Source of the DNA: Aerococcus loyolae
Lineage (GTDB): Bacteria; Bacillota; Bacilli; Lactobacillales; Aerococcaceae
Assembly (NCBI RefSeq): GCF_002871915.2
Contig: NZ_CP126958.1
Coordinates: forward strand, 1,178,001 to 1,242,000
DNA length: 64,000 nt
Reading direction: 5' to 3'
Every line of letters starts with the position of its first letter. Within the stretch, counting starts at the first letter, position 1. Both the position numbers and the translations under genes were made by a program. Positions 7,188-43,842 of this stretch are shown in pieces. A model generated the notes under the pieces. It saw nothing but the letters and a program-made list of their open reading frames with translations. It was not told the origin of the DNA and ran no database searches.

Positions 7188-9092
7188 TTACCAGATAACG
7201 ACGCGGTCTTCTGGGTCTAGGTACATTTTATTTTCTGAAGAGGTTTGGTAGGCCACATGGAAGGCATCCAAGTTCTTGACTTGTTGGTTAGCCCGCCAAT
7301 AGTTAGGAGCATGGACGTCAATGGATAATAATAGGTTTTGGTATTGAGGGCGGGCCTTCATACACCAGATTCGAGCCCAATTATTGAAGAAGGCAATGGG
7401 GTCGTAGTCCTCCTCATGGGTCATGGCTTGGTAAGCCGCTTGCAAGCCGCCAGCGTCAGCAATATTTTCTGACACCGTTAAGGTCCCATTAACCTCGCCG
7501 TCTCCTAAGGGTAAACCATCGAACTGGTCAATCATGGCTTGGGCCTTGTGGGTAAAGACTTCATAGTCCTCATCCAGCCACCAGTTATTTAAATTCCCTT
7601 TCTCATCAAATTGAGCCCCATTGTTATCAAAGGCATGGGAAATTTCGTGGGCAATTACCCCGCCAATCCCACCGTAGTTTTCACTGCGGCTTTGCTTCAA
7701 GTCATAGAAAGGTGCTTGCAAGATACCTGCTGGGAAGCAAATATTATTGGCTGAAGGATCGTAGTAGGCGTTAACTGTTTCGGCAGACATATGCCAGCGA
7801 CTATGGTCAACTTCTTTCCCCCACTTAGCGAGATTGTCCTTAACCCGTTCAGCGGTAAAGGCTTTGAGATTTTGGTAGAGCGGTAAGTTACTATCCACCT
7901 TGAAGCGCTGATAAATTTCTGGGTAGCTATCAGGATAGCCCGCCATAATCGTGATAGCATCGAGTTTAACGATGGCCTTCTTAATAGTTTGTTGGGATAA
8001 CCAGGTATTATGTTTGAGCCGGTCCTTATAAACCGCAATCATTTCTTCGATCATGGCAGTCACGTCGGCCCGGGCTTCTGGGCCAAAGTACTTCTTACCA
8101 TAATAACAACCAAAGACTTGGTCAAAAGTATTGACGGTCAGATAGAAGGCGTGTTTTTCCCGGCTCATAGTCTTGGGGTTACCGGATAGAGCCAGGCTAT
8201 ACTGGCTAGCAATTTGACGCAAGTCTTCTGACAAGGCCTGAGCCCCATCACGAGCCACATTAACAATCATCCAAGACTTCAATTCTTCAAAGTGATCAGG
8301 GCTGAAGAATTCATTTAAGGCTTCAAAATACCGCGGTTCCGTTACAATGACGGTTTCTGGCTCTTGTCCGATTAATTCCTTGATAATCGCCTTAAGCGAA
8401 TAGTGAGATGAGTAACTTTCCACTTCATTAATGTCCTTAGGATTATAGGACTTGGTATAATCCGCTAATTCTTCCTGGGACTTCACATAAGGAACAAATA
8501 GCGCATCAAAGGCGATAGCTTGGTCGGTATGGCGTTGACTCAGTTCATCACTAAAGCCCATAGCCTTTAAAAGATCAACGGTCGACCGACGCCAAATTTC
8601 TAATAATTGCTTACCCGTTCCGTTATCCTCTTCATAGTAGCCCTTGTCAGGCAAAATGGTGTTAGGGCGGCTGAGATAGAGGGCATAGTTCACCGTATTT
8701 TTCATGTCGGCTTCGTTACCCAGGTTGAAGACGAAATCATGGCCAGCCAGTAACCATTGCTTAGAAAAAGCTTGAATTTGGTCAAAGTCAGTCAATTCGC
8801 CCACATTTTCCAGGTCAGCTTGGATGGGATTTGCTCCCTCTTGGTCCAAACGATCAAAGTCCATAGCTAATTGATAGAGGGCGATCATTTCTTCCATTTC
8901 GGGATTATCTAGCTTGATTTCTCCATCAGCCATTTTCTCAATGTCTGCCATGGATAATTCTTCAATCCCATCTCGTAAGGCCATGAAACCACCTGTTGAG
9001 GACTTGTCTTCCGGGATCTCGGCTTGTTCAATCCACTCCCCGTTCACGGCCATATAAAGGTCTTCTTTTGCTTGGGACATATCTACTGTCAT
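7188..9092 (-). CDS. pepO: M13-family zinc endopeptidase (PepO-like)
   Basis: 634-residue neprilysin-family metallopeptidase. The zinc motif HEISH (H482, E483, H486) and downstream ENIAD with the third ligand (E542) are intact. The N-terminus has no signal peptide or membrane segment, as in the cytosolic PepO oligopeptidases of lactic acid bacteria. The likely role is cutting imported 5-30 residue peptides, fitting the adjacent peptide-binding genes. The start ATG has an AAAGGAG site. The C-terminus ends in RVVIW, a slight variant of the family's usual C-x-V-W ending. Confidence 0.93.
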   Translation of the reverse strand: MTVDMSQAKEDLYMAVNGEWIEQAEIPEDKSSTGGFMALRDGIEELSMADIEKMADGEIKLDNPEMEEMIALYQLAMDFDRLDQEGANPIQADLENVGELTDFDQIQAFSKQWLLAGHDFVFNLGNEADMKNTVNYALYLSRPNTILPDKGYYEEDNGTGKQLLEIWRRSTVDLLKAMGFSDELSQRHTDQAIAFDALFVPYVKSQEELADYTKSYNPKDINEVESYSSHYSLKAIIKELIGQEPETVIVTEPRYFEALNEFFSPDHFEELKSWMIVNVARDGAQALSEDLRQIASQYSLALSGNPKTMSREKHAFYLTVNTFDQVFGCYYGKKYFGPEARADVTAMIEEMIAVYKDRLKHNTWLSQQTIKKAIVKLDAITIMAGYPDSYPEIYQRFKVDSNLPLYQNLKAFTAERVKDNLAKWGKEVDHSRWHMSAETVNAYYDPSANNICFPAGILQAPFYDLKQSRSENYGGIGGVIAHEISHAFDNNGAQFDEKGNLNNWWLDEDYEVFTHKAQAMIDQFDGLPLGDGEVNGTLTVSENIADAGGLQAAYQAMTHEEDYDPIAFFNNWARIWCMKARPQYQNLLLSIDVHAPNYWRANQQVKNLDAFHVAYQTSSENKMYLDPEDRVVIW

Positions 9093-21344: not shown

Positions 21345-23228
21345 ATCGAGTAGGACTCTGTCCGTTAATCGGACAGAGGACCTCTCACACCACCGTACGT
21401 ACGGTTCCGTATACGGCGGTTCAATATCTTAAATAGGCAGACTCCGCCAGGAGGGTTAATGATTTTAATCCCCACTAGCGGAGTCTTTTTGTTGTCAGAG
21501 CGTTGTGCACCTCCGGTGTTTTAGATAGACGCCAATATTTCTTACGTGAGAAAGCAATACGTTTCGCACTATCACTATCTAATCCTAACCGCATGAGGCG
21601 TACAATCTTCGTTTGACAGCTTTTCCATCGCTTCAAAATGAGTTGCCTTAGGCGATGGTTTAACCATTGTTCTATTTCTTCAATATAAGTTTTAATATAA
21701 CCTATTCCAAAATAGTTGATCCAACCTTGTGTCACTTGGTTGATCTCTTTTACAATGGTTTTAAAGGTGCCTGGTCGCTTTCGACTTGTCAGACGTTTTA
21801 ACTTCGCTCTGAATTTCTTCTTTGCTTCATACGTCGGACGAAAACGACACCCCTTTCGGGTAGGCATGATAAGGCAACCCAAGAATTTTAAACGGGTTGG
21901 CGAACCCACTTGACTCTTCTCATGGTTAACTGTTAATCGAAGATCTTTCTCGATGTAAGTAGTAATACTCTTTAATACCCGTTCGCCTGCACGTTTTGAT
22001 TTAACGAAAATCGCAAAATCATCTGCATAGCGCACAAAACGATGCCCACGGCGTTCTAATTCTCTATCCAGTTCATTCAAATAAACATTACATAGAAGCG
22101 GTGAGATGACACCCCCTTGGGGGGTGCCCGTATAACTATCAATGAATTGACCAGACATATCGATAACGCCTGCACTCATAAAACGTCTGAGGATACGTGA
22201 TATTGCCGGATCTTTAACCATTCCTTCTAAGTAGTTAATCATCTTATCTTGATTAAAATTATCAAAACAGTTCTTGAGATCACAATCAACGACAATTTTA
22301 TAGCCGGCTTCGTAATATTCGACACACTGTTTCAGTGCACTATGTGCACTCTTACCTTTACGAAAGCCATGGCTATTTGATGATAGTTGAGGATCAATGA
22401 TTGGTTCAATAATTTGTCGAATGGCTTGTTGAACAATCCGATCCCTGACAACAGGAATGCCTAATTGACGAACTCCCCCATTGGCTTTGGGAATTTCTAC
22501 CCGTTTCACCGGTTGAGGTTTATATGTCGCGTTTATTAGTTTCTGTTGTAAGGGTTTGAGGTACTTCCTTACTTCGGCTTCCGCAGATTTCGCGGAAACC
22601 CCATCAATACCAGCTGCTCCTTTGTTCTTTCGAACCGCTTGAGCCGCTCGCATGAGGTTTTCTTCTCTGACGACGAGACTCATTAGAGACCCATCATGTC
22701 TTTTCATATATTCAATAGCTGAATTACTAAGCGCACCTACATACTTTTCAGGTTCCACCTTATGCCTTTGTAGGCTGCGTTGCTTTCGCAACTTTTCTGC
22801 TTTTCTCATAATTGAGCTACCTCCCATCTAATCAAACATTGATATTGTTCAGTCCTTCGTTTCCTTAGAAAACTACTATGACTTCGGCTGATTTCTCACA
22901 GTAAACCTTTTTCGACCGGCTTCTTATAAGGGGACTCCTGCGCCGTCTGTGAGATCTCCCTGGGTAAGAACGACAACTTTCTACTCATGTCACTGCTTCA
23001 TCTACTGTCTCAGATTCGTGCAGTATTGGACTTCACTTTGTTTCGCAAGCTCATCCATCTTTTGACAGCCTTTCTTTATGAAGTTTCTGTACGTCAGTGC
23101 AAGTATTTGCCTCCAATTTCCTTCAGATTCCACCTCACGGTGGACACCCTTGTCTTTAGCTAACAGTTCCTACTGCAAAGGTCTGTAGTGGACTTTCACC
23201 ACCTAGTTGTCGCCCATGCCAGGCGCAC
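21345..23228 (-). mobile_element. group II intron (probably class C) with its maturase
   Basis: About 1.88 kb ribozyme retroelement. On the minus strand it starts GTGCGCC at 23228 and ends CCTACTCGAT at 21345, both typical intron ends. Domain V (ACCGCCGTA pairing with TACGGTGGT, 21385-21420) and domain VI (CTCTGTCCG / CGGACAGAG, near 21355-21378) are visible just inside the 3' end. The intron-encoded protein lacks an endonuclease domain. The 5' exon is a terminator hairpin (23233-23269), the usual class C landing site. Mostly structured non-coding RNA at 21345-21474 and 22810-23228. Confidence 0.88.
21475..22809 (-). CDS. ltrA: group II intron reverse transcriptase/maturase
   Basis: 444 residues. 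RT palm with FRKGKSAHSAL, DCDLKNCFDN, GTPQGGVISPLL and catalytic YADDF; maturase X domain after about residue 330 (KEINQVTQGWINYF). No HNH endonuclease at the C-terminus, as in class C introns. It splices its own RNA and reverse-transcribes it into DNA targets. ATG 22809 is chosen because GGAGGT lies just upstream and an earlier in-frame ATG is part of that site. Appears full length and intact. Confidence 0.95.
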   Translation of the reverse strand: MRKAEKLRKQRSLQRHKVEPEKYVGALSNSAIEYMKRHDGSLMSLVVREENLMRAAQAVRKNKGAAGIDGVSAKSAEAEVRKYLKPLQQKLINATYKPQPVKRVEIPKANGGVRQLGIPVVRDRIVQQAIRQIIEPIIDPQLSSNSHGFRKGKSAHSALKQCVEYYEAGYKIVVDCDLKNCFDNFNQDKMINYLEGMVKDPAISRILRRFMSAGVIDMSGQFIDSYTGTPQGGVISPLLCNVYLNELDRELERRGHRFVRYADDFAIFVKSKRAGERVLKSITTYIEKDLRLTVNHEKSQVGSPTRLKFLGCLIMPTRKGCRFRPTYEAKKKFRAKLKRLTSRKRPGTFKTIVKEINQVTQGWINYFGIGYIKTYIEEIEQWLNHRLRQLILKRWKSCQTKIVRLMRLGLDSDSAKRIAFSRKKYWRLSKTPEVHNALTTKRLR

Positions 23229-28195: not shown

Positions 28196-29155
28196 ATTTC
28201 TACCTACATAAGTGTATAAATTGCGACAAGAAAAACGTATCGCTTTTTCGTTAACTGATAATTCAATCCATACAGACAAAAAGTCTGAACCCTCGTTACT
28301 AATGTTGATACTATCAGCAATTACAATTTCAATCCGTGCATGCGTGAAGTCTGCGACAAGCGAATTTCACTCATGGTTTCAACAATTCTTAATTTCAATC
28401 CACGCAGGCGCGTAGCCTGCGACGATATATGGATGATCAGAAGTTTAAGTAGGAGGATTTCAATCCACGCAGGCGCGTAGCCTGCGACCGGCCAATTTAG
28501 TCCATGGCGACAAATTGGAGCTATTTCAATCCACGCAGGCGCGTAGCCTGCGACCCGGCCAATTTAGTCCATGGCGACAAATTGGAGCTATTTCAATCCA
28601 CGCAGGCGCGTAGCCTGCGACCCGGCCAATTTAGTCCATGGCGACAAATTGGAGCTATTTCAATCCACGCAGGCGCGTAGCCTGCGACACGGCCCTAAAG
28701 AAAGATGGCGGTTAGTCCACTTATTTCAATCCACGCAGGCGCGTAGCCTGCGACCCGGTAGAAAACCCAATACCATTCGCATATTGCGATTTCAATCCAC
28801 GCAGGCGCGAAGCCTGCGACGCAAACAAGAGATCTACGACATGATCAGAAAAATGATTTCAATCCACGCAGGCGCGAAGCCTGCGACACTCACACTACCT
28901 TCTTTAAAATCTAAGCCCATATTATATTTCAATCCACGCAGGCGCGAAGCCTGCGACGTTAATGAAATACAGAAAGAAACCAGTTGTTATTATTTCAATC
29001 CACGCAGGCGCGAAGCCTGCGACGTAGAGACGAGGGGTTAACCTACGGATCAGCGTTATTTCAATCCACGCAGGCGCGAAGCCTGCGACGTCCATGATGA
29101 GGCGATCGCAGAGGTACCAAAAGATTTCAATCCACGCAGGCGCGAAGCCTGCGAC
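28196..29155 (-). CRISPR. type I-C CRISPR array, 12 good plus 3 degenerate repeats
   Basis: 32-base repeats; in transcript (minus) sense they begin GTCGCAGGC, fold CGCAGGC/GCCTGCG and end TGGATTGAAAT, the I-C pattern. Repeat starts on the plus strand: 28392, 28457, 28523, 28590, 28657, 28723, 28789, 28856, 28926, 28992, 29058, 29124; decayed copies at 28196, 28260 and 28326. Spacers are 32-38 bases. Three consecutive spacers (28489, 28555, 28622) are the same sequence. The six leader-distal good repeats have T, the six leader-proximal ones A, at one loop position. The leader lies on the cas2 side. Confidence 0.97.
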
Positions 29156-29290
29156 AGCTCTTTTTACAAGTTTTCACTATATTTTCATAATATAAGTGTT
29201 ATAAAAAGAGCAAAATAATCACTTATATTGTATTTTTGAGTCCAAAATACAAACGAAGCTACCGATACAATTCTGTGTGCTTGGGGTTCG
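29156..29290 (-). promoter_or_regulatory. CRISPR leader
   Basis: AT-rich 135 bases between cas2 and the first repeat. Contains inverted pairs AATATAAGTG / CACTTATATT and GCTCTTTTT / AAAAAGAGC, the latter ending exactly at the first repeat; the array promoter and the integration signal should be here. Confidence 0.75.
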
Positions 29291-29584
29291 TTATAAGAGT
29301 AAGACATCCTTTTCAGGGTGATAGGTATCGTCCCGTCCTAAGGTTTGTACTCGATGATCCCAATTCTTACCCAGATTATAGAAACGAATCGAGTCGACTT
29401 CACTATCTATGATACCATCTAATTTCGATTTAACGAGTGCCAATTGCCCAGGATCTAAGCTACATTCAAAAACGGAATTTTGAACGCGTTGACCATAATC
29501 AACACAGACCTTAGCCACCTTACGTAAGCGTTTCTGGCCAGCCTTACTTTCGGTATTCACATCATAAGTAATTAACACCATCAT
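29291..29584 (-). CDS. cas2: CRISPR adaptation protein Cas2
   Basis: 97 residues with the ferredoxin-like Cas2 core: VLITYDVNT (catalytic-type Asp), RVQNSVFECSLD, and DSIRFYNLG. Bridges two Cas1 dimers in the spacer integrase. Starts with two ATGs after AAAGGTGAT. Last gene of the cas operon, 12 bases after cas1. Confidence 0.96.
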   Translation of the reverse strand: MMVLITYDVNTESKAGQKRLRKVAKVCVDYGQRVQNSVFECSLDPGQLALVKSKLDGIIDSEVDSIRFYNLGKNWDHRVQTLGRDDTYHPEKDVLLL

Positions 29585-29596
29585 CTTAAATCACCT

Positions 29597-30625
29597 TTAA
29601 CTAATAAATGCCGGATAGTAGTCAATGTCTCCACGGATATACCTTGCCAATAGCTGCGCTTGCACATAGGGAATTAGGCCTATACTAATCTTTTCTTTCA
29701 GATAAGGATGCTTAATTTCCTGTTGCTTTCTTTTCTGCCAAGCATTGATCACTTTAGTTCTGCCATCATCATTTAACAAAACAGCAGAATTTTCCTTCAC
29801 TTCAAAGTCAGCCGCTTTAATTTGCTTGCGATTAATCAAAGAAACGACCAGACGATCCACTAGATAGGCCCGTAATTCTTCCATCATATCCAAGGCTAAG
29901 CCTGCCCGACCTGGTCGATCGGTATGAAAGAAACCAACATAACTATCTAATCCGACTGTTTCCAATGCCGATTGGACTTCGTGAGTAAGCAAACTATACA
30001 AAAATGACAGAGCTGCGTTGACTCGGTTGAGTGGGGGGCGTCTCGAACGAAAGACAAATTTAAAATCCTCTTTCTGGTGAAGGATAAGCGAATCAAATAA
30101 CTGAAAGTAAGTCCGAGCTCCATCACCTTCAATCCCACGCAACTCATCACTTGTTGTGACTGCTGGAATACTTAATACATTTTCTTTTATTTTATCACAA
30201 GCTATTTGAATTTCTTCTAATGAGTCTAAACGCTTCTTGTGATCGTTCATTAACCGCAAATAGTTTTTACGACTATTAATTAACTTGGCTTCGATCATCC
30301 ACTTGGCGCATTGGAGTGCTCGTTCATCATCAGCTATCCGGTACTGTTCTCTGCGCAATAGGACATTACCATTGGTTTTACCGATGAACTTCCCACAAAA
30401 ATTACCACTTGGGGTCAAAAAAGTTAAGGAGATCTTATGCTCATTACATAATTTAATTAAGGCCGGGCTAACACCCACATAATTAAAAGTAACAATATCT
30501 TCTAAAATATGAATGGGAAATCGTCTGATGATTTTCCCATCCAATTTGATAATAATGTTTTCTCCTTGACAGCCTAAATAATAATCTTCATTAGTGATAT
30601 ATAAAGTATTTAATAATTTTCTCAT
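29597..30625 (-). CDS. cas1: CRISPR integrase Cas1 (type I-C)
   Basis: 342 residues. Metal ligands E166 (GIEGDG), H234 (FFHTDRPGR) and D246/E249 are present, so the integrase looks functional. N-terminal beta domain, C-terminal helical catalytic domain. ATGA overlap with cas4. With Cas2 it inserts new spacers at the leader end. Confidence 0.97.
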   Translation of the reverse strand: MRKLLNTLYITNEDYYLGCQGENIIIKLDGKIIRRFPIHILEDIVTFNYVGVSPALIKLCNEHKISLTFLTPSGNFCGKFIGKTNGNVLLRREQYRIADDERALQCAKWMIEAKLINSRKNYLRLMNDHKKRLDSLEEIQIACDKIKENVLSIPAVTTSDELRGIEGDGARTYFQLFDSLILHQKEDFKFVFRSRRPPLNRVNAALSFLYSLLTHEVQSALETVGLDSYVGFFHTDRPGRAGLALDMMEELRAYLVDRLVVSLINRKQIKAADFEVKENSAVLLNDDGRTKVINAWQKRKQQEIKHPYLKEKISIGLIPYVQAQLLARYIRGDIDYYPAFIS

Positions 30626-31293
30626 GTTAGATCATCATCCATCGTCTTAATCATATAGGCCTCATAGTCGAAATCTGGACGCAAAGCATAAGATAAACTT
30701 ATATCCCGCAAGGAATCACCCTTATCATCGGGGGATTCTTTTAAACCAACATTTTCTTGCTTAGCGAAAGTCTTATGCATTTCATCCGCGAGCTCTTGGA
30801 CTAGCTGGCGGTATTCTTTACTTATTTCTACTTTCATTCGATGCTGGGTTTTGCCATAAAAAAGATAAGATTCGTCAATAGTAGTATTCAAGTTCTCTTC
30901 TAAGCAGATCACCTCAGCAACTAATTGAACAATATCGCGCAAATCCTGCTTCGGTTTTCCCCGTTTGAATTCAATTATCCGAGGAAGCCATTTTCCCTTG
31001 CGGTTGGCTAATTCTACCCCATGCTCTTCATCTTTTGTGAATTCGACCACATCTAAAATACCTGTTAAGCCTAATTGATTGGAAGAAACTGGAAGAGCTC
31101 GTGAAATAAAGCGATTCTTTCTTTTTTCTTTTAGATAAGGATTATCTGCTTTTTCATGCAACAATTGCCCTTCAATCGTATACTGATTATCAGCCCATTG
31201 CTGTTCTAAATGAATCAAACACCACTGGCGCTTAGAATAGTAGAAGTGCTGAATCCCTGAAAGCATCAAATAATCGTCTTCATCATAGGCCAT
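30622..31293 (-). CDS. cas4: Cas4 exonuclease without Fe-S cluster cysteines
   Basis: 223 residues, type I-C Cas4 by position and by SGIQHF..KRQW, IEGQLLHEKAD and IEFKRGKP. Nuclease residues H46, D81, E108 and K110 are kept. The four cysteines that normally bind the Fe-S cluster are missing: the usual F-C-K/P-R-Q-W is YYSKRQW (S20), and the C-terminal C-x2-C-x6-C-L-P segment is replaced by DKGDSLRDISLSYALRP. Only C25 and C130 remain. Cas4 normally trims prespacers and selects the PAM; this variant may lack the cluster. Overlaps cas7 by 11 bases and cas1 by 4. Confidence 0.9.
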   Translation of the reverse strand: MAYDEDDYLMLSGIQHFYYSKRQWCLIHLEQQWADNQYTIEGQLLHEKADNPYLKEKRKNRFISRALPVSSNQLGLTGILDVVEFTKDEEHGVELANRKGKWLPRIIEFKRGKPKQDLRDIVQLVAEVICLEENLNTTIDESYLFYGKTQHRMKVEISKEYRQLVQELADEMHKTFAKQENVGLKESPDDKGDSLRDISLSYALRPDFDYEAYMIKTMDDDLT

Positions 31294-32146
31294 GGAAATG
31301 CTCTACTTTCAGACCTGCTTCTTGGTATTTTTTCAACTTATCCTCATCGAGATGAATGCCATAATCGTCATAAGAATGAATATCTAAAGTAGGCACTTCC
31401 TCATATTTTAGGAGGTTAAAGACTTTACCACTTGATACCACTCCGATTTTACTTGGATGGTCGAACCAATAAATATCAACCACTTCCATGCTGCCCTCAG
31501 GTCTTGCTGCAGAAGCGTCATTAACAAATAAAGTGCGCAGACATTCCTTGACTAAGTCAGCATCTTCTTCAGAAAATTGAGTCTTTTCAGCAAAATAAGG
31601 ATTAATGCTGCCCTTAATGACATAGACACCATAATCGACATATTGCTTAGAACCCATGGTATCTGAGGCTCTATCATTACCTTTTTCGGCAGCGTTAGTG
31701 CTCCGTGTAATCTGCATGGAAACGACCTCAACGGGAGATAAGCTCTTGGCCATAGCAATTGAAACCGGACCACGGATTCCAATTGATTTACTATCATAAG
31801 TCACCACTTGCCCAAATGACCGTACATCCACCCAATTTTCACAGAAAACTTTAGCCATTTCTTCATTTGGCATCTTTTTTCTGTCTTTTGGTTCTCCAAA
31901 AGCGGCTTCATAACGACTTTGCAGAGAGAGATAGCCATCATCGATCCGGTCATTGGCCTTCACAAAGATTTCGTGGCCTTGGTCCTGCATCCGGTTTCTT
32001 AATTTACGCTTCAAACAAACATCAGTAATAATTCCATAACCGCCAATATCAGTGCGGGGATAATTTCCCGCTAGCGGATCCCCATTAGGATTAGCATTTT
32101 TTACTTCAATCGTTGCGATAAAATCAATCTTATGGTCTAAACTCAT
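31283..32146 (-). CDS. cas7: Cascade backbone protein Cas7 (type I-C, Csd2)
   Basis: 287 residues. Family start MSLDHKIDFIATIEVKNANPNGDP; internal RSFGQV and TRSTNAAEKGNDRASDTMG, all typical of I-C Cas7. Multiple copies line the crRNA spacer. ATG 32146 is preferred over an in-frame TTG two codons earlier, with AGGAGG 8 bases upstream. Confidence 0.96.
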   Translation of the reverse strand: MSLDHKIDFIATIEVKNANPNGDPLAGNYPRTDIGGYGIITDVCLKRKLRNRMQDQGHEIFVKANDRIDDGYLSLQSRYEAAFGEPKDRKKMPNEEMAKVFCENWVDVRSFGQVVTYDSKSIGIRGPVSIAMAKSLSPVEVVSMQITRSTNAAEKGNDRASDTMGSKQYVDYGVYVIKGSINPYFAEKTQFSEEDADLVKECLRTLFVNDASAARPEGSMEVVDIYWFDHPSKIGVVSSGKVFNLLKYEEVPTLDIHSYDDYGIHLDEDKLKKYQEAGLKVEHFHGL

Positions 32147-32158
32147 TATCAATTCCTC

Positions 32159-34132
32159 CTATTTCGCTTCTACTGGATTATTTTTACTGCTTTTCTTATA
32201 AATTTCACGTTTTTGTGCTTGATAACCTAAGATGAAGTCAAAGCCTACCTTGCGATTACCCTGCTTTGCATCAACCTCCAAGTCATCAATTTGGTTAAGG
32301 ATTTCCCGCTCAAAGCGTTCATAACGACGGTAATATTTACCATCCTTTTTCAAACGAATTCGGTAAGGCATAATTCGTTCATTGACCACTTGGAAGGCAT
32401 CCATGGGGTAATTCATCAATTGACTCCAGTACTTTTCAACATTGGTTACTTTAATTTTCTTCTTACTATCTTCTGAATCATTGACCGGAGAAGCAGTAAG
32501 TTCCATGACTTCGTAAACCGCAGCTAAACGGCCGTATAAATAACTTAAACTTTGGTTCTCTCTATCCACAGCTTCACTCACTTCTTTCTTTTCATAATCC
32601 CAATAGTATTTTTTCATAATCGCGCAGGCATAATTCACTAAAGTCAGCCAGGTTTTTCGATAGCGATTTCTTTGTGACACATTGAGAGCCATTTTTTGAA
32701 TAATATCCAAAGGAAACTTCCGACCATCCACTAAACATGGCAATAGCTTCTGATAGACGAGGTTTTGAACCTTGTCTTTAGCTGGTAAAATGCGCTTTTC
32801 TTCACTAATCCCATAAGTAAAACGAGCAATATTATAAAATGAAGGAGATTGCACATGACGATAACCAGGAGCTCCGAAGGTCCAATAGGTCGATTCATAC
32901 CAGACAGCGAGTTGGTCTACATATTGGTCTAAAGCTATCTCTCTGAAATATTTAATGGCGACTCGGCCATTACTAATCTTTTGAATAAGTAAAACAAAGA
33001 AATCTTCCAAGGTGATATCGCGATCTTTTTCCTCCATTTTGCCAATGAAGGCTTGTCGAAAGGCATTAGCATCCAGCTCATCAGGTTTATAGTCAAATGT
33101 TTCCATAGTCCCCATATCTAATAGCGATGCATCTGAAGCCGAAAAGGTATTATTATCATCTTCATTCTCGCTAAAGAAGGTTTGCCCTTCAACCAAGGGA
33201 ATCTGATTATCCTTAATATGTTTACTAGACCAAGTCAACAATACGCAACCATCCTTCATATAGGTGGCAGTTTCCCGATTATCCATCAAGTACTTCAACA
33301 TATTATGAATTTTCTGAGAGGTCTCATAACCAATACTAGTTACCTTATCCTTATCAGAAATTCTACCTTTATAGGTTTCAATATGGTTACTTACCGAAAT
33401 CAATTTGGCATTTCCGATAATACCCCGGTGATTTTTGGCACAAAACATCTCCTGACCAGAAATTTGGCAAATTTGATGAGGTAATTGATCCAATTGCGAT
33501 TGGACAAAGGCAATATAATTTTGGTGTAAAGCCTGACTATTTGAAACAGAAAAGTCTTTAGCGTCAATTTGTAAGATACGGAAAGTAATAAAAATAGTCG
33601 AATTGATAGTATTTTTCTTGTCTTGATAGTCAAATTCGATCTTTTTATCTTTTAATACCACATTTTTAGCGTCTGGAGATAAAGAATGGATAATGTCTTC
33701 TGTCAGACTTTGACTTTTCAAATAATCAAAAATAGTCTTTAAGTGCCCTTCAACAGAACTCCCTTGACTGTATGAAAACCAATCTTTTAATTGGTCCAAA
33801 TAAGCTTCAAACTTATCTTGATCAAAATCGGGACAGAGATAGGATAATTGGTCGGCTAATGCATGAGGAGCAGTCTTACTTCCCGAGCGCACGATGGATT
33901 CATGGGTAATCGGGAAAATAAGGGCCTCCCCTTCCTCTAAATAATCAGCACTATGAAATTTCCCCTGCTCATCTAAAACCACTTCAATAGTATCTTTTTT
34001 ACCTGCTGAGCGATTAGAATGAAAGATCGGTAATAGAACCGGATCCCCTTTGCTGAGATTTTCAGTTTGATCCACCAGACCATTTTCTTCACATTGTAAG
34101 TATGACTGATAGAGACTGGTTAAGACATTCAT
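32159..34132 (-). CDS. cas8c: Cascade large subunit Cas8c (Csd1)
   Basis: 657 residues, type I-C Csd1. N-terminal region reads the PAM; motifs seen include CPDFDQDKFEAYLDQLKDW, SQEMFCAKNHRGIIGNAKLIS-like segment near 240 and FHSNRSAG near 37. The gene may also contain an internal start for a Cas11c small subunit, as known for I-C systems, but I did not locate a clear one. ATGA overlap with cas5c. Confidence 0.95.
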   Translation of the reverse strand: MNVLTSLYQSYLQCEENGLVDQTENLSKGDPVLLPIFHSNRSAGKKDTIEVVLDEQGKFHSADYLEEGEALIFPITHESIVRSGSKTAPHALADQLSYLCPDFDQDKFEAYLDQLKDWFSYSQGSSVEGHLKTIFDYLKSQSLTEDIIHSLSPDAKNVVLKDKKIEFDYQDKKNTINSTIFITFRILQIDAKDFSVSNSQALHQNYIAFVQSQLDQLPHQICQISGQEMFCAKNHRGIIGNAKLISVSNHIETYKGRISDKDKVTSIGYETSQKIHNMLKYLMDNRETATYMKDGCVLLTWSSKHIKDNQIPLVEGQTFFSENEDDNNTFSASDASLLDMGTMETFDYKPDELDANAFRQAFIGKMEEKDRDITLEDFFVLLIQKISNGRVAIKYFREIALDQYVDQLAVWYESTYWTFGAPGYRHVQSPSFYNIARFTYGISEEKRILPAKDKVQNLVYQKLLPCLVDGRKFPLDIIQKMALNVSQRNRYRKTWLTLVNYACAIMKKYYWDYEKKEVSEAVDRENQSLSYLYGRLAAVYEVMELTASPVNDSEDSKKKIKVTNVEKYWSQLMNYPMDAFQVVNERIMPYRIRLKKDGKYYRRYERFEREILNQIDDLEVDAKQGNRKVGFDFILGYQAQKREIYKKSSKNNPVEAK

Positions 34133-34911
34133 TGTTCTGTTCCCTCCAATCCCATGGCTTGATATTCCTCATCGACTAGAGTCATATTTCCTTCATTAAA
34201 GGTCTTAAAATGATAATCATTGACTACTTGCTGCATTTGACAATCCTCAGGCCGACAGAAACTTATCTTACCTTTCTTCATTTGGATCGGAGTGTAATTA
34301 CTATATAGTTTTAAGTCTTCTTCTGCTTCGTTGCCAAGCTGCTCATCTGGGTAGGTGAAGCTATGGAACATAATCCCATAGCTGACATTCGACTCCCTAT
34401 AATAAGATTCTCTAGCAGTTTCATAGTAGTCTTTTTCGGATAAACGCTCGACAAAGCCCATACATTCGCTCGTTCCCAAGAAAATACTGCGTCGCCCTCC
34501 GCGCTCTAAGGACCGTAAAATAATCGCTTGGTGCTTGAATTCATTGCGGTCCTTAGCTAAATCAGGACGATTAAGGTTCCATTCAAAATGAAATTTAATT
34601 AAGTAGTCAACATCGCTAAGATAGGTATAATTGCTGAGATCATTACCCGGCTTTTTTCCGGTAGTTATAATTGGGCGAGCACCCATCGTCTCGGTCACTA
34701 TCCGGTTCATGACTACTAATTCATCAATAACAATATAAATCGTGGGTTTCCAATAAATTTGTTCAGTAATCCCTTTTATAGCTTGGTAGGTGGGAATTTG
34801 GTAGGTAAACTTCTCCCCACCGCCTTTAGTGACTGGATCTGTAAACAGCGCATAGTCTCCATATAGGCGATAATAAAAGGGTTTAGACTGAAAATGATTA
34901 GTCTCTCCCAT
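34129..34911 (-). CDS. cas5c: crRNA-processing Cas5c
   Basis: 260 residues. LYGDYALFTDPVTKGGGEKF and PTYQAIKGITEQIYWKPTI are diagnostic of I-C Cas5, which replaces Cas6: it cuts pre-crRNA at the 3' base of the repeat hairpin and keeps the 11-base 5' handle. AAAGGAG site. 37 bases after cas3. Confidence 0.95.
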   Translation of the reverse strand: MGETNHFQSKPFYYRLYGDYALFTDPVTKGGGEKFTYQIPTYQAIKGITEQIYWKPTIYIVIDELVVMNRIVTETMGARPIITTGKKPGNDLSNYTYLSDVDYLIKFHFEWNLNRPDLAKDRNEFKHQAIILRSLERGGRRSIFLGTSECMGFVERLSEKDYYETARESYYRESNVSYGIMFHSFTYPDEQLGNEAEEDLKLYSNYTPIQMKKGKISFCRPEDCQMQQVVNDYHFKTFNEGNMTLVDEEYQAMGLEGTEQ

Positions 34912-34947: not shown

Positions 34948-37437
34948 TTATAAGATAAAACTCTCCATTCCCTCATCCTTCAAACCAATTTCTAAGGCAT
35001 CACCACTCTCATCAGAAGCATAATATTCTTCTAATAGGACTAGGATTTTGCCGTCCAAATATTCCTCAACCTTGCCTTGAAGCTTTCCTGAATAGTGAAC
35101 TTGGATAGTATAGGGTTGGAGGCATTTTAGTAGCCGCTTTAGATGCTTGAAGTCATAATCGTCAATGGCTTGCCGCATTTGATCCAGCAAGTCGCGGTTA
35201 TGATAAGGAACAATCACTGAAATCGTCTCTTGCTCAATAAGATTAAATTTTTTAGCGACCGTATTGAAAGCCTGGGCAATCATATATTTATCCGATTTTT
35301 TACTTTTCTTGCGCACATAGTTGTTCCAAGCTAATAAGTCGATGACGTTTTGATCTTTAAGCGGCCACTTCATCTCGAGAGTATAATTCATATCTTCAGG
35401 TGGATTTTTATATAAGTTCCGATAATAAGATGCTACCAAGGACTCTAAGGAAAAACTCTGCCCAAGTTGGTTAATCCCCTCTTGGCGTAGAACCTTTCCA
35501 GCAGCTTCCTGACTGGCTTTTATTTCCTTTAAGTAAGTTAAATCTTCTTCGGCATAATCAATTAGTTTAAACAGTCCCTTATCCAAATGACCATTGCGAT
35601 TGCAACGCCCGGCCGCTTGGACCAGGGAATCGATACCTGCCAGGGAACGATAAACAACATTGAAATCCAAGTCTACCCCTGCTTCGATCAGTTGGGTGCT
35701 GACCACAATGATGGGTTGATCGTGAGATGTTTGCATCTGCTTTTTAATCTTTTCGATTTGATTTAAACGGTGCTTAGCACACATATTAGTGGTTAAATAA
35801 TAAAGTGAATCAGCCTCAAAATACTCTTCTAGGGCTTGGACCAAAGTATTAACCGCGGATTTGGTATTTAAAACAAGAAGAATACTTTGGAATTCCTCAG
35901 CATCTTCTTTTATAAAGGCTACTAATTGATCAGTTGAAAGCCTCTGCTTACTAGTCTGATCAATATAATTAAGAGCTTCAATCCGTTGAAATGATTCCTC
36001 CGCTTCAGGATGCAAGGGAACCAGATTAGGAGACGAATCTTGAAACTGTAAAGGATAATCTAAAGACTTGTCCGCCAGGAGCGGCTGGGTCGCAGTGCAT
36101 AAGATCACCGTTGTTCCCATTACCTCAGTTAGAAAATTCATCATTAAATTAAAAGGATAAAGGACCTTAATAGGTAAGCTTTGAACTTCGTCTAAAATAA
36201 TGACTGATTGGGCTAACTGGTGAAAGCGTCTAATTTGACTAGCCTTGCCCTTAAACATGGTCTGAAAGAACTGAACCATAGTGGTTAAAACAAAAGGCGC
36301 CTGCCAAGAATCAATAAGGTATTGTTGTTGACGGTATCTCTGACTCTGCTGATCTTCCTGCCCGTCCTCTTCCACGATATTAGAATGGTGTTCAAGAATA
36401 GCATCCTCTAACCTACTTAAAACGCTTTCAATTTCTTTTGCATTTTGCTCAAGAACAGATAAAAAGGAAGTCACGTAATAAACATGGTCTTTTTCCATAG
36501 TCTTGGCTCGGTTAACCGCATAACGAAGGACTGCTTGGGTCTTACCCGATCCAGTTGGTAAAGATAATTGCAAGGCTGAATCAGTTGGATCACCAGCACG
36601 ATCCTTAAGCTGATTAGAAAAGTTCGTCCGCCAATAATTGATAGCTGAATCCCCAGCAAATTGTCCATAATAGTTAGCTTGGTCTTCCACACAATCAGCT
36701 GCTTGGTTAAAAATACCCGCCCTTTCCTGCCTATCCCAGCGATATTCAGAAAGTTCTATTTGATCCCAATTGGCTGAATCATAGATATCGCCTTCTTTAA
36801 GGATGGATAAGATAAGTCGGACTAAGCAATGGAGATAGAAATGCAAAGCATTCACCGCATAGTTTTGATCACTGTCTTCTTTAATCATCGATAGAGCCAT
36901 TTTCCTGAAACGATTCCAAAGCACTTGAAACTCAGCTACACCCTTTTGATAGATCTCTTCCAGGGAATAACCATATTTTTCTCGAGTCACTTCGCTTAAT
37001 TCTTCACAATAAGGCATGACCTGGCTGTCAAAATGATAGTTTCCATCTTCATCATAGTTAAAACGTTTTTCCATGTTAATGGTAGACGGATTCTCGAGAT
37101 CTATAGCGTCAAATAGACCATGGTGGGCATAAATCACGTATTGGAGGACTTGGCTATAAATATAGCCAGTTTGATTTTTGGGCATCACTTTTTTATTTAA
37201 ATAGTCGACTATCCTGCCCCCAGCAGAGGAGTGGTTGACTCTTATCTTTTTGCCTTTTTGGATATAATCTTGAAAATTTTGATCGGCCTTTCCCACGTCA
37301 TGAAGAACTCCCGCTAGAAAAGCTGTCCAGCCTAAATTCAGTCTGACTCCGGCTTCATAGCAATAGTCGGCCACATTGACCAAGTGATCTGTTAGCTCTT
37401 GGACTGCTCCGTCTTCATTTTTATGAGCGATTAGCAA
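34948..37437 (-). CDS. cas3: CRISPR helicase-nuclease Cas3 (type I-C)
   Basis: About 829 residues. N-terminal HD nuclease (LHDVGK, H46-D47; VNHSSAGG), then superfamily 2 helicase: LPTGSGKTQ near 298, LDEVQSLP near 400, TATQPLL, and motif VI AAGRCNRNG. Degrades DNA marked by Cascade. The frame is open to an ATG at 37491, but a perfect TATAAT lies inside that stretch; TTG 37437 (LLIAHKNEDG, matching family N-termini) has GAGGGAGGAG upstream and is my start. First gene of the cas operon. Confidence 0.93.
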   Translation of the reverse strand: MLIAHKNEDGAVQELTDHLVNVADYCYEAGVRLNLGWTAFLAGVLHDVGKADQNFQDYIQKGKKIRVNHSSAGGRIVDYLNKKVMPKNQTGYIYSQVLQYVIYAHHGLFDAIDLENPSTINMEKRFNYDEDGNYHFDSQVMPYCEELSEVTREKYGYSLEEIYQKGVAEFQVLWNRFRKMALSMIKEDSDQNYAVNALHFYLHCLVRLILSILKEGDIYDSANWDQIELSEYRWDRQERAGIFNQAADCVEDQANYYGQFAGDSAINYWRTNFSNQLKDRAGDPTDSALQLSLPTGSGKTQAVLRYAVNRAKTMEKDHVYYVTSFLSVLEQNAKEIESVLSRLEDAILEHHSNIVEEDGQEDQQSQRYRQQQYLIDSWQAPFVLTTMVQFFQTMFKGKASQIRRFHQLAQSVIILDEVQSLPIKVLYPFNLMMNFLTEVMGTTVILCTATQPLLADKSLDYPLQFQDSSPNLVPLHPEAEESFQRIEALNYIDQTSKQRLSTDQLVAFIKEDAEEFQSILLVLNTKSAVNTLVQALEEYFEADSLYYLTTNMCAKHRLNQIEKIKKQMQTSHDQPIIVVSTQLIEAGVDLDFNVVYRSLAGIDSLVQAAGRCNRNGHLDKGLFKLIDYAEEDLTYLKEIKASQEAAGKVLRQEGINQLGQSFSLESLVASYYRNLYKNPPEDMNYTLEMKWPLKDQNVIDLLAWNNYVRKKSKKSDKYMIAQAFNTVAKKFNLIEQETISVIVPYHNRDLLDQMRQAIDDYDFKHLKRLLKCLQPYTIQVHYSGKLQGKVEEYLDGKILVLLEEYYASDESGDALEIGLKDEGMESFIL

Positions 37438-37458
37438 TTTATCATCTCCTCCCTCAAA

Positions 37459-37469
37459 ATTATACAGAA
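37459..37469 (-). promoter_or_regulatory. cas operon promoter -10 with adjacent TTC PAM
   Basis: TATAAT on the minus strand at 37464-37459, 20 bases ahead of the TTG start with the ribosome site between; no good -35. TTC (37469-37467) directly precedes TGTATAATTTT, the 11-base stretch matched by the pseudo-spacer of the crRNA-like gene next door. Confidence 0.6.
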
Positions 37470-37490
37470 GTTTTCTTTTTACTGATTCCA

Positions 37491-37499
37491 TGTTATAGT
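37491..37499 (+). promoter_or_regulatory. extended -10 promoter of crRNA-like RNA
   Basis: TGTTATAGT fits an extended -10 (TGn-TATAGT). Transcription would begin about 37506, at the first base of the pseudo-repeat stem. Confidence 0.5.
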
Positions 37500-37505
37500 A
37501 ATTAT

Positions 37506-37612
37506 GTCAGTAAATCAACCGATGATTTACTGCGGATTGAAATTGTATTATTTTCACTTTAGTGAAAATTAGCTAGGTAAGGTCATTTTAGACACTACCT
37601 AGCTATTTTATG
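37506..37612 (+). ncRNA. candidate crRNA-like regulator of the cas operon (CreR-like)
   Basis: Divergent to cas3. A 10-bp stem CAGTAAATCA / TGATTTACTG (37508-37532) is followed by CGGATTGAAAT (37533-37543), identical in 10 of 11 bases to the repeat's handle TGGATTGAAAT although the stem sequence is unrelated. The following pseudo-spacer (from 37544) starts TGTATTATTTT and matches TGTATAATTTT beside the TTC PAM in the cas3 promoter; mismatches fall at positions 6 and 12, the flipped-out bases of type I guides. A terminator (TAGCTAGGTA / TACCTAGCTA, TTTT; 37570-37609) ends it. Cas5c processing and Cascade binding are inferred. Confidence 0.75.
37570..37610 (+). terminator. terminator of crRNA-like RNA
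   Basis: Stem TAGCTAGGTA / TACCTAGCTA (from about 37570) followed by TTTTAT. Confidence 0.7.
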
Positions 37613-37721: not shown

Positions 37722-38165
37722 AAAGAAGATGATTACATTAACGAGAAAGACTACTTTCAAGAAAGATTAAATGATCAAATTAATTGGTATGATTCTAAAA
37801 GTCAGCATCATCAAAAATGGTATAAATGTTTTAAAATAGTAGAACTAGTGTCTGGTTTTGGCATTCCTATAATCACTACCTTAAAATGCCCATTTTTTGA
37901 AGTTGTTAGTGTTATATTTTCAGGTCTAATATTATTTTCAGAAGGCATTATAGCTTTATATAGCCACCATGATAACTGGGTGGAATATCGTAAAATTTCA
38001 GAAATGCTTCAGCATGAAAAATATATGTTTCTTACGAATACCGGGGTGTATTCTAATGAAAAGATACCATTTAAACTCTTAGTTGAACGTGTAGAAAGTA
38101 TAATTTCTAGTGAAAATATCAATTGGGCAAATATGGAAACCGATCGTAAAGTAAAGGAGAATTAA
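37722..38165 (+). CDS. DUF4231 (SLATT-like) membrane protein, start codon unclear
   Basis: The open frame runs from just after a TAG at 37719 to 38165 (147 codons). N-terminal DDYINEKDYFQERLNDQINWYD and HHQKWYKCFKIVEL are typical DUF4231, followed by two membrane helices (IPIITTLKCPFFEVVSVIFSG region and ILFSEGIIALY) and a cytosolic tail (NWVEYRKISEMLQHEKYMF, LLVERVESII). But no ATG/GTG/TTG precedes the conserved N-terminus; the first GTG (37848) would cut it off. SLATT/DUF4231 proteins are predicted effectors of nucleotide-signal defence. Four bases before the TIR gene; probably one system. Confidence 0.7.
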   Translation, partial: KEDDYINEKDYFQERLNDQINWYDSKSQHHQKWYKCFKIVELVSGFGIPIITTLKCPFFEVVSVIFSGLILFSEGIIALYSHHDNWVEYRKISEMLQHEKYMFLTNTGVYSNEKIPFKLLVERVESIISSENINWANMETDRKVKEN

Positions 38166-38169
38166 ACCT

Positions 38170-38769
38170 ATGAGACACAAATGCTTTATTTCATTCAAAT
38201 ATAAAGATTTAGAATATAAAGAACGCCTTCAGAATGATGACACTATTAAAATCGATATGATTGATAAATCATTAGACGAACCTATCAATTCAGATGATCC
38301 CGATTATGTCATGAGAATAATTAGACGGGACTACCTAAAAGATTCTACTGTAACCTTGCATTTAATTGGTAAATATAGTGCTGAAAATTCTATATTCGAA
38401 AATCAATATTATATAAAAAAAGAACTTCAAGCATCATTATCTGATACTGACCTCTCTAGTAAAAATGGTATTTTAGGAATTGTTTTACCTGAAATGTATG
38501 ATGATATTTACATAAGGGAACGTACTTGTTCTGAATGCGGGAAAAAAATTAGTATGTTAAATTTGAACGATGATACCACTATTACAGAATTTAGTTATAA
38601 CTACTTTATCCCAAACAATAAATGCCATTGGTCATTTGATGATAGATACTGTGTTCTAGTGAAATGGGATAATTTTATAGAGAAACCAAATTTCTATATC
38701 GATTTAGCATTTGATAAGCGCGATGAACCTATTGCAAAGAAAACTAAAGTTCGTCCAAAAAAGAAATAA
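38170..38769 (+). CDS. TIR-like (MTH538/ThsB-type, DUF1863) protein
   Basis: 199 residues. [10 protein letters not shown], an Asp/Ser loop ([25 protein letters not shown]), [13 protein letters not shown] and E85 in IKKELQASL fit the TIR fold of ThsB, which makes an NAD-derived signal when phage is sensed. An insertion C120-x2-C123 ... C152 ... C161 could bind zinc. Follows DUF4231 by 4 bases; ribosome site AAAGGAG. Thoeris pairs ThsB with ThsA; here the partner is a membrane protein instead. NADase or cyclase activity is inferred. Confidence 0.75.
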
Positions 38770-41329: not shown

Positions 41330-42400
41330 ATGAAACATTCTAACACGAAATCAAGATCATATGCACACCTTTCTGCAGAAAAGCGCGGAATCATTCAAGC
41401 AATGCACCATGAAGGACATAAACAGAAAGAGATTGCTAACGCCATCGGCGTTAATCAAAGCACCATATCTCGTGAATTAAAACGTGGAAAAACGCGTCAA
41501 ATGATCTACGATCATCAATATATTGATGTCTATTTAGCAGAGACTGGCTCGCGTGTTTATAAAGAAAATCGGTTAAATTCAAAGGCCAGAGGCGCTTTGT
41601 TCGGAAAGTCTACTTTTATAAAAGCCTTTGAAGAAGCCTTGCTTACGCCTAAAAAAGATCGTGTTTTCAGTGTTGATACGTTCATTCATAAGTATCGTAG
41701 AGAGCATCCTTTAGAAATCGTTCCTTGCACCAAAACCATGTATAAATATATCAACCTTGGTTTATTAAGAGTGAAAAATATTGATCTTCCTATGAAAACA
41801 CGGATTCGCCCGAGAAAGCAATCAAGTGAGCCACGTGGGATAAATAAAAAGTTATTCGGAAAGAGTATTGATCAACGATGTCCAGACGTTCTTTTTAGAG
41901 AGGAATTTGGCCATTGGGAGCTTGACCTCGTGATAGGAAAGAAGACTAAGGGAGAGCCGTGTATTATTACTCTAGTTGAAAGGAAAACGAGAAAACTTCT
42001 CACCAAGAAGACCTGGAGGTGGGATGCAGGCTCTATTGTGAAATCGATTAAAAGGATGATTCTCAAAGAGGGGCAAGCCTGTTTTAAAACCTTAACGACC
42101 GATAACGGTAGTGAATTTTCTAAACTATCTCATCTTGAATATGCTCTGAAGAATTTGGAAGTCTTTTTCGCTCATGCCTATTCTGCTTGGGAAAAAGGCA
42201 GTAATGAGAGACATAATCGCATGTTAAGAGAATACTTGCCCAAAGGGACAAGTTTTAAAAAGCTGACGTACCAGGAATTAGCACACTACACGAATACCAT
42301 AAACAATCGCTTTAGAAAGATCTTAGATTATCAAACTCCCAATGATTGTTATAACATGGAAGTTGCGAAACTTCAGGAAACCCTTAGAGAAGCAGGCTAA
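41330..42400 (+). CDS. IS30-family transposase (copy 1)
   Basis: 356 residues. N-terminal HTH (HKQKEIANAIGVNQSTISREL) and DDE integrase core: ELDLVIGKK (first Asp), TTDNGSEF (second Asp), ending ERHNRMLREYLPKGTSF with the Glu in GSNERHNRML. AAAGGAG upstream. Differs from copy 2 at scattered residues, so the copies are not recent sisters from one event. Confidence 0.96.
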   Translation: MKHSNTKSRSYAHLSAEKRGIIQAMHHEGHKQKEIANAIGVNQSTISRELKRGKTRQMIYDHQYIDVYLAETGSRVYKENRLNSKARGALFGKSTFIKAFEEALLTPKKDRVFSVDTFIHKYRREHPLEIVPCTKTMYKYINLGLLRVKNIDLPMKTRIRPRKQSSEPRGINKKLFGKSIDQRCPDVLFREEFGHWELDLVIGKKTKGEPCIITLVERKTRKLLTKKTWRWDAGSIVKSIKRMILKEGQACFKTLTTDNGSEFSKLSHLEYALKNLEVFFAHAYSAWEKGSNERHNRMLREYLPKGTSFKKLTYQELAHYTNTINNRFRKILDYQTPNDCYNMEVAKLQETLREAG

Positions 42401-43270: not shown

Positions 43271-43516
43271 ATGCCTTTAACAATTAATAAATGGGGGAAT
43301 AGTTCTGCTATTCGACTTCCAAAACAATTACTTGAAGAACTCAATCTATCCCAAGGCGACAAACTAGATTATCAGGTAAAAGATGGCCAGCTGATTATAA
43401 AAAAAATAACCGAAGTTCCTGAACTTACGGTTAAAGACTTGTTTGAAAATTATGATGGAGATCCTGTTAATGAAAAGCCGCAATTATTTGAACAAAAAGG
43501 AAATGAAAAATGGTAA
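43271..43516 (+). CDS. mazE: MazE/AbrB-family antitoxin
   Basis: 81 residues. N-terminal swapped-hairpin DNA-binding domain: INKWGNSSAIRLPKQLLEELNLSQGD; the acidic C-terminal tail (TVKDLFENYDGDPVNEKPQLFEQKG) should wrap the toxin. AAAGGAG site. Overlaps the toxin gene by 7 bases. Confidence 0.93.
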   Translation: MPLTINKWGNSSAIRLPKQLLEELNLSQGDKLDYQVKDGQLIIKKITEVPELTVKDLFENYDGDPVNEKPQLFEQKGNEKW

Positions 43517-43842
43517 AAGTGAAGCAGGGATCGATTATCAAGATAAATTTAGACCCGAAACAGGGACATGAACAAAAAGGCTATCGGCCCTACATTTGTT
43601 TGAGCCATGGTATTGTTACTAAGTACTCAAATATTGCAATTTTTGCACCCATTAGTCATACAAAAAGAAAATATCCATTTTATGTTGAGTTAGAACAAAC
43701 AAAAACGACTGGAAAAGTGCTATTAGATCAATTAGTTACCATCGATTTTAATGCCAGAGACTATAAGTATATCGAACAAGTTCCAGATGATATACTCATT
43801 GATTTATTAGCTAGGGTAAAAGTTCTATTTGAAAAAGAATAA
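43510..43842 (+). CDS. mazF: MazF/PemK-family endoribonuclease toxin
   Basis: 110 residues. GSIIKINLDPKQGHEQKGYRPYICLS holds the catalytic Arg (in KGYRPY), and APISHTKRKYPF the catalytic Thr/Ser stretch; LLDQLVTIDFNAR follows. Cuts mRNA at short motifs when the antitoxin decays. Target sequence not predictable. Intact operon in the defence island, ended by its own terminator. Confidence 0.93.
   Translation: MVKVKQGSIIKINLDPKQGHEQKGYRPYICLSHGIVTKYSNIAIFAPISHTKRKYPFYVELEQTKTTGKVLLDQLVTIDFNARDYKYIEQVPDDILIDLLARVKVLFEKE

Follow-up and report, generated by a model that had tools for sequence, protein, structure and literature searches.

A solitary CRISPR RNA-like element opposite cas3 in Aerococcus loyolae: a candidate type I-C guide for repression of the cas operon

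Why should a solitary repeat-like unit with a guide of its own stand opposite cas3, and which site would such a guide address? The question is raised by a 64,000-nucleotide stretch of the Aerococcus loyolae genome, referred to here as the window, in which a reading of the sequence alone (the original prediction) had placed a crRNA-like gene whose guide matches the -10 box of the cas operon promoter. The window contains a complete type I-C operon on the minus strand, in the order cas3-cas5c-cas8c-cas7-cas4-cas1-cas2 and followed by the CRISPR array, the subtype being assigned by the NCBIfam models for Cas5c, Cas8c, Cas7 and Cas1c. The cas3 gene extends over 34948-37437, the remaining genes of the operon (cas5c, cas8c, cas7c, cas4, cas1c and cas2, named from NCBIfam) over 29291-34911, and the array, with repeat GTCGCAGGCTNCGCGCCTGCGTGGATTGAAAT, over 28326-29166 on the minus strand and in the same reading direction as the cas operon. 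A promoter site does lie opposite the element, as predicted; the ATG at 37491 of the open reading frame gave way to TTG 37437 as the most likely cas3 start, because the nearest other Cas3 found (Aerococcus P0002, 91% identical to the Cas3 of the window) begins at that residue. GGGAGGAG at 37453-37446 reads as a fitting ribosome site for TTG 37437, and with this start the guide target therefore lies upstream of cas3.

The surroundings hold several further features. Within the array, three successive spacers (28493-28653) are identical or almost so, and the spacer at 28958-28991 matches the Streptococcus phages Javan326 and Javan351 (97% and 94%, 31 nt), with CTC on the PAM side of both matches. 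The distal end of the array (28240-28345, minus strand) carries two degenerate repeat units, one of which, CGGATTGAAATTGTAATT, has 15 bases in common with the handle and guide start of the solitary RNA. Parts of a group II intron (Rfam) lie at 21345-23144 on the minus strand. On the plus strand, a DUF4231 gene (37848-38769) lies just downstream of the guide RNA and adjoins a ThsB-like TIR gene; its frame has no standard start codon from the preceding stop to GTG 37848, and a truncated gene or a rare start codon is possible. The same strand carries a transposase-like gene (HTH_38, rve; 41330-42400), about 4 kb from the guide RNA, and a MazE/PemK-like pair (43271-43842).

The element itself occupies 37506-37605 on the plus strand and consists, by sequence and fold, of GT, a 10-bp stem-loop, the CGGATTGAAAT handle, a guide and a terminator-like stem. 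An extended -10, TGTTATAGT (37491-37499), read by eye from the sequence, would place the start of the guide-RNA gene near 37506. The pseudo-repeat (37506-37532) is formed by GT and a 10-bp stem, CAGTAAATCA/TGATTTACTG (37508-37517/37523-37532), around a 5-nt loop, and is followed by the 5' handle CGGATTGAAAT at 37533-37543. Direct reading bore out that this handle is identical to the array handle, TGGATTGAAAT, at 10 of 11 positions; the exact GGATTGAAAT stands at 37534-37543, beside cas3 and about 8 kb from the array. The guide or pseudo-spacer (37544-37556), which reads TGTATTATTTT from 37544, matches the cas3 promoter target at bases 1-5, 7-11 and 13. According to the fold, a second hairpin (37550-37569), within which guide bases 7-14 lie in the free RNA, precedes a terminator-like stem (37570-37605), interrupted by an internal loop and followed by ATTTTATG. 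The RNA at 37506-37612 folds at -36.1 kcal/mol (z -6.41, none of 200 shuffles being as good). There is no second handle core on the plus strand of the window and no second repeat after the guide, and the stem of the solitary unit differs in sequence from the array repeat, so that no canonical repeat-spacer-repeat with array-like repeats is present. The hairpin had been described as unrelated to the CRISPR repeat stem, and this is correct for the sequence of the stem, which has been replaced, yet the pseudo-repeat keeps the 5' GTC of the array repeat and therefore looks like a degenerate repeat. The extended -10 and the terminator, likewise part of that description, are recognisable by eye and from the fold, but a consensus scanner called neither: at these sites it found no terminator, nor did it assign a sigma-70 promoter to cas3 or to the RNA. 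The scanner requires a -35 hexamer, and the cas3 promoter has no consensus -35. The extended -10 and the GTC-led stem at the handle are compatible with transcription, and with processing by the crRNA nuclease.

The putative target lies on the minus strand at 37456-37469 and comprises the PAM TTC (37469-37467) and TGTATAATTTT (37466-37456), inside which stands the TATAAT at 37464-37459. Aligned with the minus-strand TTC-TGTATAATTTTG, the guide TGTATTATTTTC matches at positions 1-5, 7-11 and 13 and mismatches at 6 and 12, which agrees with the original prediction of a match at 10 of 11 from base 1 with these two mismatches. The target precedes the probable cas3 start by 29 nt, no gene standing between the two, and lies about 40 nt upstream of the presumed start of the RNA itself. 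Among the 2764 TTC sites of the 64 kb, it is the only one with a 10/10 seed match, two others reaching 9/10, and the same seed finds a 10/10 match in none of 160 other promoters; the matched target is better than chance. Past base 12 and up to base 17, the guide matches at 13 only, and the binding of this particular guide may therefore be weak; most members of the family described below match at 13-16, and the matches of Trichococcus (L001) and Enterococcus CU12B (L020) are longer. Such an element might be a relic repeat-spacer unit whose promoter match is a coincidence in AT-rich DNA. The sequence is indeed AT-rich, and the distal array end (28240-28345) has degenerate units too, one of them starting with CGGATTGAAATTGTA as the solitary guide does. 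Set against this, the seed match is missing from all 160 other promoters, and for the two distal units the 64-kb window offers no match of at least 9/10 beside a TTC, although one has a CTC-flanked 9/10 match at 8876.

Type I-C loci in other genomes were also surveyed. A Cas3 alignment of 20 sequences led to 40 loci, and Cas5c searches led to further loci: 229 Cas5c places were recorded, some of them repeated, and 140 regions were taken by hand, places with weak matches or at contig ends being mostly skipped. Of the 181 loci pooled, L108 had no Cas3 match, and from the remaining 180 a further 19 were set aside as duplicates or for having less than 150 nt upstream, leaving 161 with the window included. 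Two loci (L095, L158) were taken out of the guide test, their hits being arrays; L002, a copy of L001, was kept in the locus counts, score tests and tree and dropped from the pairing-pattern and stem analyses. Close relatives of the window were not recovered by a search of genome contigs with its Cas3, and blastn of the promoter region against plasmids gave no match; tblastn against plasmids gave at most 31% identity among the best 40 of 87 matches. In 76 genomes of the family of genome G319, five Cas5c matches were found, the best of which (63% identical) is the closest Cas5c in any genome reached. The handle core was taken from the repeat of each locus itself (GGATTGAA in 73 hits, GGATTTAA in one, L084), and, over positions 1-5 and 7-11, each guide was scored against the TTC sites lying between -350 and +80 relative to the estimated cas3 start in its own locus and, as control, in the other loci.

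Of the 161 type I-C loci, 25 possess a solitary handle and, close to their own cas3, a PAM-flanked site matching its guide, a number that is not an unbiased frequency, because regions were hand-picked and most places with weak matches or at contig ends passed over. That homologous loci should conserve the seed-promoter match was a test set beforehand, and its outcome favours the original prediction, with the restriction that not all of these sites are the cas3 promoter; the other 136 loci have no such element under the criteria used. By draw, the positives were 12 of 26 for the Lactobacillales, 8 of 39 for the Cas3 scan and 1/11, 0/10, 2/59 and 1/15 for the others, plus the window. Thirty-eight solitary handles, located from 1.5 kb upstream to just inside cas3, could be tested, and their scores are bimodal: 17 reach 10, one reaches 9, none falls at 7-8 and 20 lie at 6 or below. 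Scores of at least 9 were thus obtained by 18 of 38 (17 of 37 without L002), with a null of 0.18%. Over whole loci, 21 of 170 exact solitary handles score 9-10/10, where 0.4 are expected; the corresponding figures for one-mismatch handles (5 of 2097 vs 2.9 expected) give no clear excess, and hence the exact handle matters. Array spacers of the same loci yielded no 10/10 match and seven at 9/10 among 3379. Given these controls, local base composition does not explain the matches, and the lack of a clear excess among the one-mismatch handles speaks against a relic as well.

The composition of the 25 depends in part on individual decisions. L093, the only one of the five matching one-mismatch handles to be kept, was chosen after these had been seen, on the ground that its guide and that of L081 are the same at the 14 scored positions; the other four (L010, L012, L119, L157) were treated as chance, their class being without clear excess. 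Four of the 20 solitary handles unmatched at first were matched later, namely L184 with a wider promoter window and L007, L079 and L078, which are counted only from a whole-locus search with any PAM for 11 unmatched solitary units. In L007 and L079 the TTC-flanked target is 601-746 nt upstream, and in L078 the PAM is CTC. A 10/10 match with ATA in L084 and a 9/10 match with TTT in L106, from the same search, were not counted. A counted target is therefore absent for 16 solitary units (L004, L006, L009 on the plus strand, L016, L037, L076, L084, L094, L106, L128, L136, L138, L144, L150, L157 and L181), some of which seem to lie in coding sequence (for instance L016, by eye) and some of which keep the GTC stem (L106, L144). 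On a Cas5c tree of 142 of the 161 loci, built with FastTree only, presence of the element requires 18 changes against 23.4 when labels are shuffled, with none of 500 shuffles as low; presence is clustered but scattered, the details of the tree being unsafe on account of long branches.

The pattern of pairing in a set of 21 members (L002 omitted, L093 included) is informative, as several positions played no part in selection. Positions 6, 12 and 18 match in 5, 8 and 6 of the 21 guides, that is 19 of 63 against 19.3 when shuffled, which is the background level. Positions 13-16, unused for selection, match in 20, 16, 19 and 14 of the 21; over positions 13-17, 78 of 105 are matched as compared with 35.7 in shuffles (maximum 55 in 2000), the matching falling off at position 17, with 9 of 21. 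A weak remainder is seen at positions 19-23 (42 of 105 vs 33.2 shuffled, with 2.9% of shuffles as high). In type I-E, every sixth guide base is described as flipped out of the guide-DNA duplex (PMC5904413), and the 6/12/18 pattern is that to be expected if the same holds in the type I Cascades putatively served by these guides. The suggestion that the two mismatches of the window fall at unpaired type I positions is supported by the background level of 6, 12 and 18 across the 21 members. Furthermore, guide and target vary together, as would be expected from the original prediction: in five related loci (L078, L087, L090, L091, L092), the guides show 46 pairwise differences, and at 42 of them the target has changed as well and pairing is kept, counted over 14 scored positions in each of 10 pairs, which are not independent of one another. 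Taken with the bimodal scores, the 6/12/18 pattern and the co-variation across loci make it very unlikely that the element is a relic.

Twenty-six pseudo-repeat stems were compared, and five look-alikes picked for their stem (L007, L078, L079, L106, L144) were left out, so that 21 remained. Stems led by GT and of at least 3 bp occur at 15 of 21 guide-selected handles and at 108 of 2100 one-mismatch control handles, and GTC-led stems of at least 4 bp at 13 of 21 and 4 of 2100, respectively; a plainer stem score of at least 5 is reached by 11 of 21 handles as against 95 of 2100 controls. The stem varies between members of the family without loss of pairing: among 20 GT-led stems, 19 have C-G as the outer pair, and the third pair may be C-G, T-A, G-C, A-T or T-G. 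An A-T second pair occurs in 12 of the 15 family stems led by GT, compared with 13 of 102 array repeats and 1 of 21 readable repeats of the positive loci.

With the correct PAM and seed, the element could in principle be a self-targeting spacer by which the chromosome is cut. In the type I-C system of Xanthomonas oryzae, which uses a TTC PAM, killing is reported to need at least 27 matching bases (PMC8406640), whereas here 11 bases match up to base 13; on this basis shorter matches should bind without cutting. Moreover, a lethal guide would not recur with co-varying targets as this one does, and we regard autoimmunity as practically negligible.

The position of the targets in the other loci bears on which gene would be controlled. 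Twelve of the 21 members, including L081 and L093, have their target no more than about 105 nt from the estimated cas3 start; it coincides with the -10 box (the window), lies near the -35 (L032) or in the leader (L020), or falls just inside the gene (L040), promoter elements being read by eye. In L081 and L093 (-104), a terminator-like hairpin separates the target from the cas3 leader, and the target may therefore drive a very short RNA. Five loci (L078, L087, L088, L090, L092) have an ORF for a hydrophobic protein of 27-56 aa between target and cas3; by eye, these are alike in four of the five, that of L088 being different. The matched TTC-flanked site of L142 (-257) and L184 (-363) is just upstream of the solitary RNA itself, and these guides are possibly self-limiting. 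In L072 and L198, the RNA gene is 2.2-2.5 kb downstream of the cas3 start and its guide matches a site 47 nt before that start (9/10 in L198). These arrangements raise the alternative that repression by the RNA is directed, in addition or instead, at the promoter of the RNA itself or at an adjoining gene, and that cas3 is controlled secondarily. The target about 40 nt upstream of the presumed RNA start, the sites upstream of the solitary RNA in L142 and L184, the small hydrophobic ORFs and the hairpins of L081 and L093 would all suit this alternative. It is nevertheless unlikely, since the match in the window falls on a TATAAT box that precedes the cas3 start by 29 nt and since 12 of the 21-member set have their target within about 105 nt of the estimated start of that gene.

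The anatomy, the PAM, the guide/target match, the recurrence and the co-variation, all of them features read from the sequence, argue instead for a type I-C equivalent of CreR by which Cascade would be directed to repress cas3, a reading to which we give a probability of about 0.86 and under which transcription, processing, binding, repression and feedback would take place as follows. We propose that 37506-37605 encodes a type I-C crRNA-like small RNA, the transcript of which would begin at the pseudo-repeat and end at the terminator rather than at a second repeat. Cas5c, which processes crRNA in type I-C in place of a separate Cas6 (PMC7684278), would trim the transcript at the base of the stem and expose the handle. 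The RNA would then be loaded into Cascade (Cas5c-Cas8c-Cas7-Cas11c) and guided to its cas3 promoter site, TTC and TGTATAATTTT; 10-11 base pairs would be enough there to occupy the -10 box and exclude RNA polymerase, and too few for cutting by Cas3. An abundance of free Cascade or a shortage of ordinary crRNAs would lower cas transcription, and occupation of Cascade by crRNAs or inhibitors would raise it. For type I-E, as few as five seed pairs are reported to suffice for Cascade binding, and targeted binding at promoters represses (PMC5904413). The same source describes binding in E. coli that left transcription unaltered, and binding alone is therefore not repression. The location of guide bases 7-14 in a predicted hairpin of the free RNA counts against the mechanism. 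The autorepression of the cas operon that was originally predicted is supported, as regards targeting, by the seed match, the recurrence, the 6/12/18 pattern and the co-variation, and would act through repression of the promoter.

If this reading is true, many type I-C operons, which belong to one of the commonest subtypes and have a minimal Cascade (PMC7684278), would possess a built-in thermostat that senses free Cascade; such a device would keep self-damage down and could react to anti-CRISPRs. As an evolutionary readout, the natural guides would also show which positions are relevant for binding (1-5, 7-11 and 13-16, not 6, 12 and 18), which would be useful for type I-C gene-silencing tools. 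A wider and rather doubtful proposal, which we offer tentatively, is that type I-C systems across Bacillota possess a broad class of regulatory guides with a single pseudo-repeat and a terminator end, set apart from most array repeats by the A-T second pair of their GTC-led stem; these guides would sense free Cascade and adjust cas expression accordingly. In one branch of the Lactobacillales, they would control in addition the small membrane protein ahead of cas3, and if Cascade were lost or inhibited, a membrane effector would then be switched on together with new Cas proteins.

Elements of this kind have precedents. Shmakov et al. (2023, NAR) reportedly found standalone repeats, mostly of type I, with guides partly matching cas promoters; the window element resembles these as a standalone repeat with a cas-promoter guide, and differs in that theirs are said to be often mini-arrays of two repeats. 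Type I-C elements may thus already have been catalogued in earlier work. The long-form tracrRNA of Cas9 (Workman et al. 2021) is likewise said to be a natural guide that turns the effector on its own promoter, although it is a type II, tracrRNA-based system and the RNA is unrelated to the element of the window. Regulation by type I-C systems is the subject of PMC10949514 and PMC11150851; a type I-C report of such an RNA was not found among the matches listed from the open-licence PMC literature.

A different kinship would be with the RNA anti-CRISPRs (Racr), solitary repeat mimics that include type I-C; one of them, RacrIC1, is a lone repeat unit of type I-C and inhibits a system of that subtype (PMC10651486). 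As such a decoy, the element would soak up Cas5c or Cascade and have no DNA target, and a transposase-like gene (HTH_38/rve, 41330-42400) is indeed about 4 kb away. As described in PMC10651486, Racrs are encoded by mobile elements and act by mimicry on Cas proteins, with no matched promoter target. The solitary element of the window adjoins the cas operon, and its guide does have a target, at the neighbouring cas3 promoter. For a decoy, a matching guide is unnecessary, yet the guides match a PAM-flanked site both here and in other loci; we therefore consider a decoy alone highly improbable, although a titration brake could coexist with targeting.

The targeting of Cascade to the cas3 promoter has its closest counterparts in CreA and CreR. 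In CreTA of Haloarcula hispanica (type I-B), guide positions 1-5 and 7-11 of CreA pair beside a TTC (PMC8501985). The element of the window shares with CreA one pseudo-repeat followed by a guide and a T-rich terminator, and the pairing of 1-5 and 7-11 with a TTC-flanked promoter site; the two differ in that CreA is described as repressing a toxin RNA (PMC8501985), whereas the site in the window is at cas3, with no toxin gene identified between target and cas3 in the window. The cas-regulating RNAs or CreRs (Liu et al. 2023 Cell Host Microbe; described in PMC13131331, PMC12948488 and PMC12737573) are crRNA-like RNAs with partial complementarity to their own cas promoter and autorepression through their own effector, the last of which is probable for the window. 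As in CreR, a repeat-derived handle stands outside the array within the CRISPR-cas locus, and the guide has seed-type complementarity to the cas promoter beside the correct PAM; the window element is made of one pseudo-repeat and a terminator-like stem. The CreR/CreA-type label of the original prediction fits as a mechanism, but type I-C is outside the subtypes I-B, I-E and V-A named for CreR in PMC13131331, while PMC12737573, which speaks of 'Type I and Type V-A' and gives no subtypes, does not exclude a type I-C CreR. The element is thus best described as CreR-like, and a type I-C case would extend CreR beyond the I-B, I-E and V-A systems for which it has been named.
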